Shown: positions 43,883 to 47,254 of the stretch, piece after piece
Layout: the number at the start of each line of letters is the position of its first letter
Position numbering within the stretch: position 1 is the first letter of the stretch
Source of the DNA: Balneolales bacterium ANBcel1
Lineage (GTDB): Bacteria > Bacteroidota > Rhodothermia > Balneolales > Natronogracilivirgulaceae
Assembly (NCBI GenBank): GCA_029688905.1
Contig: JARULB010000007.1
Span: 1-64,000 of the forward strand
Length of the DNA stretch: 64,000 nucleotides
Reading direction: 5' to 3'
The notes under the pieces: generated by a model
Databases searched by the model: none
What the model saw: only the letters and a program-made list of their open reading frames with translations
What the model was told of the DNA's origin: nothing
Program-made: the position numbers and the translations under genes

Positions 43883-44458
43883 TTACACGCCAATCAGGGT
43901 GCCAACCAGAAAGAAGTAGAGCGCCAGGCCTGTAAAGTCTTTAATGGTGGTGATGAACGGATCGGCTCCTGGCGCGTGATCCCAGCCCATCTTGAGAAGC
44001 AGCCACGGCAGGAAAAAACCAAGAAACGTTGCCAGCGGAATAACAATGGCCAGTGAAAGTCCGACTGCAACGCCGATCTGCGGTACCTCGTTGGGTGCGC
44101 CTTGCCAGAGCCAGGCGACAAAACCACCGAGGATGCCCAGAAGCACTCCCATGATCATGCCGATCGAAACTTCTCTTCGGATGTGTTTCCACATCCCGTT
44201 GATGTTCACCTGTCCCAGAGCCAGCCCCCGGGCGAAGATTGTCGTCGACTGGGTCCCCACGTTTTCTCCCATATCCATGATAACCGGGATGAAAATTGCG
44301 GCGACTAGTACGGCGCCAAGGACTTCCTCAAAATATTCGATGACACCGCCGACCAGGAATCCTCCGGTAAGAGTGACCATAAGAAAAGCCATTCTGAGCT
44401 TGATGGGGTAGGTCAGTGATCCTTCGAACATGCGCCGGCTGAACTGCATATCCCACAT
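43883..44458 (-). CDS. mgtE: MgtE-like transmembrane domain (downstream part of split mgtE)
   Basis: This frame encodes the five-helix MgtE channel domain: RMAFLMVTLTGGFLVGGVIEYFEEVLGAV, then DMGENVGTQSTTIFARGLALG, then helices to the end. The family usually has GGNxGTQ here; GEN is unusual. The frame extends upstream to 44506, but that part is the other gene's DNA read out of frame. Translation could begin at ATG 44458, inside the upstream gene. No CBS domain precedes it. Whether it makes a working channel, pairs with the upstream product, or is a remnant is open. Confidence 0.6.
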   Translation of the reverse strand: MWDMQFSRRMFEGSLTYPIKLRMAFLMVTLTGGFLVGGVIEYFEEVLGAVLVAAIFIPVIMDMGENVGTQSTTIFARGLALGQVNINGMWKHIRREVSIGMIMGVLLGILGGFVAWLWQGAPNEVPQIGVAVGLSLAIVIPLATFLGFFLPWLLLKMGWDHAPGADPFITTIKDFTGLALYFFLVGTLIGV

Positions 44459-44966
44459 AAATGGTCTCCCGATCTGTGGCTGTCTTTCTGGCTGTTTCCA
44501 GCGCATCGGCGACGGTAAACTCTGCCTTCAGCTCCAGCAAGTCGGTTGTCATGATCGATCCTGCCTTACCTTCGGGATACTCTTCAAGTTTTCGGATATC
44601 CGCCTGTTCGCTTGCAGGCAGGCTTTTGAGAATGGCCTCGGCGGTATTCTCGTCGAGAAGATGAAGCGAGTCGACACGATCGTCGTGCGACATATTGGAA
44701 AAAACGGCGGCGGTTGTTTCGGTATCCATAAATCCGAGCAGTTTGCCCCGGTAGTCGGCATCCATATGGCCAATCATGTCGGCCGCCAGGTGATGCTCCA
44801 GTTTTGTAACGATATTTGCGCCAATGTGCGGTTCGCAGAACCGGACCAGTTGTTCGGCGGCCATCGCCGGATGATGGTTCCGGATCAGCGAAATGGTACG
44901 GTCGTCCGATACTCCATGGATCAGACGTTCCTCCAGTTCCAGAATAAGTTTTTGCTCTTTGGTCAT
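44328..44966 (-). CDS. mgtE: MgtE N-terminal domain with truncated CBS (upstream part of split mgtE)
   Basis: Residues 1-130 form the helical MgtE N domain (FSNMSHDDRVDSLHLLDENTAEAILKSL; IRKLEEYPEGKAGSIMTTD). A CBS1 domain begins (FTVADALETARKTATDRETIYVGYAV, to about residue 175) and then breaks off; the last 37 residues after that are another frame. A whole MgtE would continue for about 95-100 residues of CBS before the channel. So an internal loss, plus a frame change, has joined CBS1 to the channel domain. The ribosome binding site (GAGGTG) lies in a leader hairpin. Confidence 0.65.
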   Translation of the reverse strand: MTKEQKLILELEERLIHGVSDDRTISLIRNHHPAMAAEQLVRFCEPHIGANIVTKLEHHLAADMIGHMDADYRGKLLGFMDTETTAAVFSNMSHDDRVDSLHLLDENTAEAILKSLPASEQADIRKLEEYPEGKAGSIMTTDLLELKAEFTVADALETARKTATDRETIYVGYAVQPAHVRRITDLPHQAQNGFSYGHSYRRIPGRRCHRIF

Positions 44967-45064
44967 GGTTTCACCTCAGAATTCAGGGCGCCTGGGGAAG
45001 GCGTTGCAGCGCCCAGGTGAAACCGGGATATCACATCAGGTGAAGCGTCTCTGCACGTGTGATA
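44967..45064 (-). promoter_or_regulatory. Structured mgtE leader that covers the ribosome binding site
   Basis: On the minus strand GGTTTCACCT (45024-45015) pairs perfectly with AGGTGAAACC (44976-44967), which directly precedes the ATG and includes the ribosome binding site. Next to it GGGCGC pairs with GCGCCC (45014-45009 with 44991-44986). Upstream a second hairpin, TATCACA with TGTGATA (45064-45058 and 45035-45029), shows in its loop another TTCACCTG, also complementary to the ribosome binding site. It does not match the M-box magnesium riboswitch as far as I can see. Confidence 0.6.
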
Positions 45065-45373
45065 CCGTTTCAACAAGGCACGACAAGCGCCCGCTCAGGC
45101 GCGAGTTTGAATAGCTACATAAATGACTGATGTCGTCCATGTCGGTATTGTTTAGTTGTTGATTGGCAAACAAAAATGAATCTGTTCGCGGCTTAACGAC
45201 GTTCCGGGCATTTTATTTTGGTATTACCCGGCTGATTCTGTCGCCCGCTGACCAATGTCTATTGTGATGACAACCGGCCGCCGGCAGGATGACTGCCTGA
45301 TCAAATATCGGGCAAGTCCCTGAAAAGCAGGCCAAAGGTAGGCTTTTACGCGCAAGCATGTCAATTTTTTTTC
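45065..45373. other. Gene-free region between mgtE leader and first uppP
   Basis: No coding sequence seen. On the minus strand, just after the first uppP stop, AAAAGC (45323-45328) and GCTTTT (45342-45347) form a small AT-rich hairpin, and GCGCC/GGCGC stems lie near 45080-45100. It should hold the mgtE promoter. Confidence 0.35.
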
Positions 45374-46231
45374 TTAAAAAAAGTAATTTCCTATCAGGAT
45401 GACCGCGGCCAGGCACCACACATAGTAGGAGAAAAAACGAAACTTCGCCTGATAAAGCAGGTGTACGACCAGGTAAAGCGCCGCGATGCCCACCAGTGCG
45501 GAAACGACAAAACCGATGGCCAGTGCCGGAAAGCCGATAGCCAGGGTGCCGCTGTAGCGGAACACCTCGATCGACTGGAGCAGTGTTGCACCCAGAATTG
45601 TCGGAAACGCGATAAAAAAGCTGTATTCAGCTGCCCACCGGCGTTTAAGTCCTGCAAAAAGGGCAAAAGCGATCGTAAGGCCGCTGCGGCTCAGACCGGG
45701 CATCAGCGCCAGCCCCTGGCCGATTCCGATGGCTATGGCGACTCCAATCCCGATTTGACGCAAGCCAATTTTTCGATCGGGCAGGATGTCGGTCCACCAA
45801 AGCAGCAATCCCGTGATCACAAGCGTCACGCTCATAAGAGTAGGGTGAGCGAAAACATTCTCAAACTGAGATTTCAATGGCAGTCCGATAATGGCTGTAA
45901 CGGCCACGGAAAACAGGCCCAGCAGTGTCAGTTTGATGAAAAGCCGGTCCTTTGGCGAGGTGTCACGTCTGGCCGCCGCCAGAAATCCTCTGGAGGCATC
46001 CCGCAAAAAACGACTCAGACTTTTACGAAAAACGACTGCAATGGATACCAGTGTACCGACATGCACAACCAGATCAAACAGAATCATCTCGGCAGAATTC
46101 GGCGCCGGAATTTCCTGGCCCATCCAGATAAAGAAATGCTGTGCAAGCGCCAGATGGCTTGTAGAACTCACCGGAAAAAACATGAATATTCCCTGGATGA
46201 TCCCAAGGATGATGACTACCCAAATTGCCAT
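45374..46231 (-). CDS. UppP-like protein with changed active-site motif
   Basis: A 285-residue membrane protein of the BacA/UppP family, which recycles the wall lipid carrier by removing a phosphate from undecaprenyl diphosphate. The motif PGLSRSGLT is intact and FFPVSSTSHLAL is close to standard. But the Glu-rich motif (ExxxE, often QxxxE) reads Q13 and M17 here: GIIQGIFMFFP. The second glutamate, needed in E. coli, is missing. It may be inactive, have another role, or use another residue. It follows the intact paralogue by 207 bases on the same strand. Confidence 0.85.
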   Translation of the reverse strand: MAIWVVIILGIIQGIFMFFPVSSTSHLALAQHFFIWMGQEIPAPNSAEMILFDLVVHVGTLVSIAVVFRKSLSRFLRDASRGFLAAARRDTSPKDRLFIKLTLLGLFSVAVTAIIGLPLKSQFENVFAHPTLMSVTLVITGLLLWWTDILPDRKIGLRQIGIGVAIAIGIGQGLALMPGLSRSGLTIAFALFAGLKRRWAAEYSFFIAFPTILGATLLQSIEVFRYSGTLAIGFPALAIGFVVSALVGIAALYLVVHLLYQAKFRFFSYYVWCLAAVILIGNYFF

Positions 46232-46438: not shown

Positions 46439-47254
46439 CTAATAAAAATAGACGATTCCGATGATTCCAACCGTCCAGCAGTAAAACGCGAAATAGTGAA
46501 ATTTCTCTCGTTTGAGCAGTATGATGAGGTACTTCAGAGCGATATACCCGGAGACGAAGGAGGTCAGGAATCCGGCGAATAGGCTAATTACCGCTGCGGT
46601 TTCGATGCCGGTTTCGGCAACTTCCATCATTTCGAGCAACATGGCCCCGGCCAGTACCGGCAAAACCATCAGAAAAGAGAAGTTGGCGGCGTTTTCCCGG
46701 CTCATCCCGCTGAAAAGGCTGACCGATATGGTGGATCCGGAGCGGCTGATGCCGGGAATGATGGCGAAAGCCTGAGCCACCCCGACCAGAAGTCCTCGTC
46801 CCGTGTCGACATCCCCGGCCGGTTTGCCCATAAATTTTGTGGCGTACAGAAGACTGCCGGTAATCAGCAGCATGCATGAGACAAAAAACGGATTCAGGAA
46901 AAGCGCCTCAATGGCATCCTTCATGGTAAAACCGACGATTCCTGCAGGAATCATACTCAGCAAAATGATGTAGCTGAGGCGGGTGTTGCTGTCGGTAACA
47001 AACCGTTTGCTTTTGATGCCGGCGGGAGAAAAGCTCTTGAACAGATCGGTGAGTATTTCCAGAATTCTTTTCCGGAAATAGACGGCGATACTGCAGAAGG
47101 AGCCGAAATGCACCACAATTTCGAAGGTAATTCCCGGCTCCAGGTCACGGCCGAGCAGTGCGCGGCCCAGTGCCAGATGGCCGGAGCTGCTCACCGGCAA
47201 AAATTCCGTAATCCCCTGAAGCAGTCCCAGCAAAATCGCATGTAGCAGATCCAT
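46439..47254 (-). CDS. uppP: Undecaprenyl-diphosphate phosphatase
   Basis: A 271-residue membrane enzyme with the full motif set: QGITEFLPVSSSGHLALG (Q13, E17), and IPGISRSGSTISVSLFSGM with the catalytic arginine. It frees phosphate from undecaprenyl diphosphate for another round of wall synthesis and is a bacitracin-resistance factor in the family. Length is normal. The paralogue directly downstream lacks E17, so this is the likely functional copy. Confidence 0.95.
   Translation of the reverse strand: MDLLHAILLGLLQGITEFLPVSSSGHLALGRALLGRDLEPGITFEIVVHFGSFCSIAVYFRKRILEILTDLFKSFSPAGIKSKRFVTDSNTRLSYIILLSMIPAGIVGFTMKDAIEALFLNPFFVSCMLLITGSLLYATKFMGKPAGDVDTGRGLLVGVAQAFAIIPGISRSGSTISVSLFSGMSRENAANFSFLMVLPVLAGAMLLEMMEVAETGIETAAVISLFAGFLTSFVSGYIALKYLIILLKREKFHYFAFYCWTVGIIGIVYFY

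Follow-up and report, generated by a model that had tools for sequence, protein, structure and literature searches.

A putative uORF-coupled attenuator with an acidic leader peptide upstream of mgtE in Balneolales

The mgtE locus

We analyzed a window of 64,000 nucleotides from Balneolales bacterium ANBcel1 (contig JARULB010000007.1, positions 1 to 64,000). On its minus strand lies a gene for the Mg2+ channel MgtE (43883–44966), preceded by a structured leader. As already stated in the initial annotation the leader precedes mgtE; a frame break within the gene had however been missed. In comparison to the ortholog of the relative L006, 320 nt are missing, out-of-frame and comprising most of the CBS region. 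Since 320 is not a multiple of three, the N-domain and the membrane part are located in different frames: a frame of 212 aa containing MgtE_N (PF03448; 44328–44966, minus strand) is ended by the break, and the transmembrane part (MgtE, PF01769; 43883–44506, minus strand) was assigned in another frame by Pfam and by the comparison with L006. The gene may have decayed to a pseudogene recently, or the assembly may be faulty at this point. Because of this disruption the leader may be a relic at this locus, or it may precede a misassembled gene. The genome contains a second mgtE, which is intact, belongs to another subfamily and has no attenuator-type leader. Upstream of the leader we noticed two adjacent uppP/BacA-like genes of the undecaprenyl-diphosphatase family (45374–46231 and 46439–47254, minus strand), the former confirmed by Pfam. 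Between 44950 and 45420 neither an intrinsic terminator nor a sigma-70 promoter was found, the scan model for the latter not covering Bacteroidota-type promoters.

A conserved stem at the ribosome binding site of mgtE

Reading the minus strand, GGTTTCACCT (45024–45015) is the exact complement of AGGTGAAACC (44976–44967), which contains the Shine-Dalgarno (SD) sequence of mgtE and adjoins the ATG (44966–44964) with its 3’ end. The stem is extended by 6 bp between GGGCGC (45014–45009) and GCGCCC (44991–44986). We refer to the anti-RBS arm as segment 2 (45009–45024; 2a GGTTTCACCT, 2b GGGCGC), to GCGCCC, the partner of 2b, as 3a (44986–44991) and to the RBS up to the ATG, the partner of 2a, as 3b (44967–44976). 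By simple arithmetic, the chance of an exact 10-mer complement at most about 90 nt upstream is roughly 1e-4. Folding the leader recovered this stem as well as a second hairpin further upstream, with −39.1 kcal/mol compared to a mean of −31.7 for shuffled sequences (z = −2.3; equal stability in 2 of 200 shuffles). The initial annotation had described the ten-base stem and its six-base GC extension, and both are exact in the sequence and fold as claimed.

The closest comparison is offered by three genomes from another genus of the same family (L006–L008), whose MgtE orthologs are about 55% identical at the protein level; the named relatives of the window are MAGs of Balneolales recovered from soda lakes and comparable sites. 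When the leaders are aligned the arms hold: 15 of the 16 closed-stem pairs are invariant in all three relatives, and the 16th is T-A in the window and C/A in the relatives. In all four leaders segment 3a is unchanged, as are 9 of the 10 pairs between 2a and 3b. This conservation is stronger evidence for the stem than the chance arithmetic. The 10-bp plus 6-bp stem at the mgtE ribosome site is confirmed. The whole element is larger than the 44967–45064 span first described and extends upstream to 45140.

An upstream ORF with an acidic head

The additional sequence contains an unannotated upstream ORF (uORF) of 34 codons on the minus strand (45036–45140), MDDISHLCSYSNSRLSGRLSCLVETVSHVQRRFT followed by a stop. 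It starts with an ATG at 45140 and ends with a stop codon at 45038–45036, encoding MDDISHLC...RRFT. In L006–L008 the uORF is conserved (MDDSSHLC..., 33 aa) and ends at the same place, the frames reading MDDSSHLCSHSTRRPDRLGSFRVETVSRISPSA or similar, followed by a stop. The leaders of the window and of the three relatives align over about 175 nt, with conservation starting at the uORF ATG. The only indel within the uORF comprises 3 nt, i.e. one codon, and indels of 1–2 nt are found exclusively 3’ of its stop. Across the Balneolales leaders with such a head, bases 1 and 2 of the acidic codons are fixed and base 3 is variable. Past approximately codon 8 substitutions are spread evenly over the three codon positions and amino acids are not conserved, so only the head, the frame and the end of the uORF seem to be constrained. 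As for Salmonella mgtQ, a short frame is conserved upstream of a Mg2+ transporter gene and its first codons are acidic (M-D-D in the window). A clear SD sequence for the uORF was not found in the Balneolales leaders. In several of these the start codon of the uORF seemingly lies within a small hairpin (CAACTA...TAGTTG in L047 and ACAAC...GTTGT in L042, for instance), which may tune uORF initiation.

The end of the uORF coincides with hairpin 1 (TATCACA/TGTGATA, 45064–45058/45035–45029; 45029–45064, minus strand), where the relatives have TATCT/AGATA. Its loop contains a second copy of TTCACCTG (45044–45037), as initially reported. The proposal that this copy acts as an additional anti-RBS element did not hold: it is missing in all three relatives, which carry CTTCTGCCTG, TAGCTGCCTG and CATTTGCCTG at this position, and it represents the last codons of the previously overlooked uORF (TTC ACC TGA).

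Competing folds in dependence on ribosome position

The 3’ arm of the closed stem has an upstream copy inside the uORF, with its parts in the same order: GCGCCT or GCGCCC, then TTGAAAC. Segment 1a (GCGCCT, 45097–45102, minus strand) mimics 3a and can pair with 2b as an outer anti-sequestor. This pairing is kept in all four leaders, the last pair being G-U in the window and C-G in the relatives. Segment 1b (TTGAAAC, 45067–45073, minus strand) mimics 3b, and its TGAAAC can pair with GTTTCA of 2a as an inner anti-sequestor; the six pairs are kept in the window, L006 and L007, and in L008 with one mismatch. Arm 1 can hence pair with arm 2 around hairpin 1, segment 2 being common to both alternative folds. 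The minimum free energy structure of the full-length window leader is the open form with TTGAAAC pairing. The leader is therefore switch-like, as had been suspected, but the conserved competitor is the upstream copy of the lock’s 3’ arm and not a second anti-RBS copy.

We simulated a translating ribosome by treating the leader as covered as far as the uORF end. With this mask the calculated cost of opening the mgtE start in the window rose from 6.6 to 13.0 kcal/mol (+6.4), a rise equalled by 1 of 100 shuffles; all energies refer to 37 °C and standard salt, which differ from the conditions in a haloalkaliphile cell. Among the leaders of this folding test, which were picked for having a uORF, the mgtE start closed by at least 6 kcal/mol in 12 of 15 from Balneolales including the window (matched by no more than 2 of 100 shuffles per leader) and in none of 67 other mgtE leaders, where the largest value was 3.0. 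In most leaders closure appeared once the simulated ribosome reached the last uORF codons. According to these calculations the leaders share with mgtQ competing 1:2 and 2:3 stems, an RBS hidden in 2:3 and a switch depending on ribosome position.

No switch was obtained for L031, L040 and, with the standard mask, L048, for which the outcome varies with the mask. For L031 a mismatch in arm 1b is a plausible reason. Weaker closure of 3–5 kcal/mol under some masks was found for L051, L053 and two of three gammaproteobacterial leaders. The uORF of L040, which is identical to L066, reads IEEPPDCYCHIIDIKTYCYEAIIL with ATA in place of ATG, and this leader is possibly a decayed copy.

Leaders of this kind occur in two mgtE subfamilies of Balneolales and are absent from the group’s other mgtE subfamilies. 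In the paralogous leaders L037–L042 the arms (GGCATGAGA, TCTCATGCC and TGAGACAG) are unrelated to those of the window, however the three-arm 1:2/2:3 layout is kept. For the 1:2 state of this group six pairs are changed on both sides, with a covariation score of 0.42 versus 0.20 in shuffles (reached in 0 of 500), and for the 2:3 state two pairs are changed on both sides. What the subfamilies have in common is the acidic head of the uORF and the logic of the arms, not the sequence.

Proposed mechanism and alternative explanations

We consider it likely that the leader attenuates mgtE translation in a uORF-coupled manner, with an acidic leader peptide and low Mg2+ as the likely trigger. Arm 2 would have two alternative partners. 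Pairing with arm 1 within the uORF would leave the mgtE start open, and pairing with arm 3, the mgtE ribosome site, would close it. A ribosome translating the complete uORF would strip arm 1, so that 2:3 could form and mgtE would be off; early loss of the ribosome would allow 1:2 to form and mgtE would be on. The ribosome would probably itself be the sensor of low Mg2+, the acidic start of the nascent chain destabilizing it (intrinsic ribosome destabilization). Our analysis shows the sequences and how they are conserved, the alternative pairings, the computed opening and closing and the enrichment of acidic uORFs; from these we infer that the uORF is translated, that ribosomes are lost when Mg2+ is low and in which direction mgtE responds.

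The short mgtQ uORF of Salmonella contains acidic residues that abort its translation, so that stem 1:2 forms and the mgtB RBS is freed from 2:3 (PMC8092293). Our leader resembles mgtQ-mgtB in its short uORF with early acidic residues (Asp2 and Glu5 in mgtQ) and in competing 1:2 and 2:3 stems, the latter covering the RBS of a gene for a Mg2+ transporter. Complete translation of the uORF as the off state and aborted translation as the on state would be a further parallel (PMC8092293). The two differ in transporter (MgtE, not MgtB) and phylum and have no sequence relation; moreover mgtQ is very short and is flanked by mgtC and mgtB within one operon, while the mgtE leader opens with a uORF of 19–50 codons. 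In mgtL ribosomes fall off at EPDP under low Mg2+ (PMC11282234). The mgtL-mgtA leaders of E. coli and Salmonella likewise place an acidic head, in this case the acidic/proline EPDP, before a Mg2+ transporter gene, but mgtL acts on a Rho-dependent terminator (PMC11282234) and the visible output here is the mgtE RBS. With the same anatomy as mgtQ/mgtL before a different Mg2+ transporter, a Mg2+-sensing translational attenuator would be the simplest account. The open-access literature yielded nothing on point for mgtE combined with ribosome destabilization or for leader peptides in Bacteroidota.

A ribosome could also stall on the leader peptide for another cause, such as a scarce charged tRNA (e.g. 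for Cys), proline or an antibiotic, making the leader a classical attenuator. A Cys codon at position 7–8 recurs in many Balneolales leaders, and arm 1 would be left free by any stalled or lost ribosome. However, Cys is lacking there in L037, L048 and the gammaproteobacterial leaders, and the common feature is the acidic head in front of a Mg2+ channel gene, which makes this explanation unlikely. We regard a direct riboswitch, in which binding of Mg2+ or another metal flips the folds and the uORF is incidental, as quite unlikely. Alternative folds upstream of a Mg2+ channel gene would suit it, and in Thioalkalivibrio a structured RNA linked to mgtE has been proposed as a strong riboswitch candidate (PMC11109978). 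Yet no Rfam family matched in the window, even at E values up to 5. The M-box (RF00380) was detected neither in the window at gathering score nor on 44900–45300 up to E 5, in agreement with the missing M-box pattern noted initially, while the same scan readily detected M-boxes in soda-lake Bacillota (11 matches in 8 loci as positive control). In addition, the subfamilies have no conserved aptamer core in common, and the calculated switching tracks the position of the ribosome.

Melting of the RBS stem with heat, as in an RNA thermometer, is highly improbable. The closed stem does coincide exactly with the RBS, but according to the fold its 16 mostly G-C rich pairs would be too stable for gradual melting in the growth range, and a thermometer could do without both arm 1 and the conserved uORF. 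ROSE, fourU and similar families gave no match, and the RBS helix is perfect and G-C rich, not weak or U-rich. The initial annotation had offered an undescribed magnesium-responsive leader or a thermometer. The leader does appear to be undescribed at this place, but it is most likely ribosome-driven, not an RNA-alone riboswitch or a thermometer; as a whole the earlier interpretation is partly supported.

Acidic uORFs upstream of mgtE in other groups

Uncovering an attenuator driven by the uORF would be of wider interest, as ribosome-based Mg2+ sensing via acidic leader peptides has so far been described for a few genes of enterobacteria (mgtL, mgtQ). If our reading is true, the same logic would operate at mgtE, a Mg2+ channel family widespread in bacteria, across phyla and sequences that are unrelated, and would amount to a general way of controlling Mg2+. 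An acidic head combined with a ribosome-dependent RBS lock would provide a search recipe for such leaders.

M[DE][DE] uORFs were present in 14 of 23 target leaders and in none of 65 other mgtE of the class (Fisher p ~1.3e-10). The heads of target leaders read MDD, MDE, MED or MEE, with P, S and C frequently coming next, and in L034 and L035 DPEPEP or DPDPEP is found further into the uORF. An acidic uORF was not found in the same-subfamily members L032, L033, L036, L050, L203 and L205. In a mixed, largely Bacillota set with mgtE assigned by BLAST, acidic uORFs led by an SD sequence preceded 18 of 57 mgtE versus 1 of 124 other genes from the same loci (p ~1.6e-9), breadth-survey counts that ignore kinship among the genomes. 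Five gammaproteobacterial mgtE relatives (L270–L274) have a uORF of 26–27 aa, M[DE]DPSSR...PA before the stop, and two more gammaproteobacterial mgtE leaders encode MPDEPEPGPSL... and MPAPEDDDPGSS... Three further Bacteroidota mgtE uORFs start with MPDSKEPGAS, MHSQDEPGAR and MSKSDDPGSW.

Whether these leaders belong to one class of acidic leader peptides before mgtE, be it shared or convergent, with the ribosome as Mg2+ sensor, acting in series with the M-box in Bacillota and with the orphan “mgtE motif” of Thioalkalivibrio as one member, we regard as evenly balanced. Head examples are MDEPGSC, MDDPSSR, MPDEPEPGPS, MSDDPGS and MESDSDVP. The phyla such a class would span, with the chances for and against about equal, are Balneolota, other Bacteroidota, Gammaproteobacteria, Bacillota, Spirochaetota and probably Actinomycetota. 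Like our element, the Thioalkalivibrio motif SRC-65-1, an orphan riboswitch candidate, is a structured mgtE leader of bacteria from soda lakes, and its large stem carries SD and AUG at the base; unlike for the window leader, no uORF is reported in the accessible part of the text (PMC11109978). The M-box (ykoK leader) is a Mg2+-responsive leader also found at mgtE, but its aptamer RNA is not present in the window leader. In Mycobacterium uORFs lie near Mg2+ transporter genes as well, there together with M-boxes; the M-box controls the SD of the uORF itself, and the accessible parts of these papers report neither an acidic head nor abortive translation (PMC12810186, PMC4974804). Such a logic would also hint at a second sensor, based on translation, concealed in some of the orphan mgtE “riboswitch candidates” and in some M-box leaders.

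Most of the eight Bacillota leaders described below match the M-box where scanned, and several SD-led acidic uORFs of the mixed set are located 3’ of an M-box. M-box and uORF may therefore operate in series, with the acidic uORF as a possible second Mg2+ sensor.

The MgtE homologs of L270–L274 do not have the N domain, and their conserved uORF is located 200–300 nt upstream. In the Bacillota mgtE leaders L070, L073, L078, L081, L088, L089, L096 and L100 a strong SD sequence is followed by an acidic uORF, e.g. MESDSDVP or VANDDDDSVP, and several of these uORFs overrun the mgtE start in another frame.
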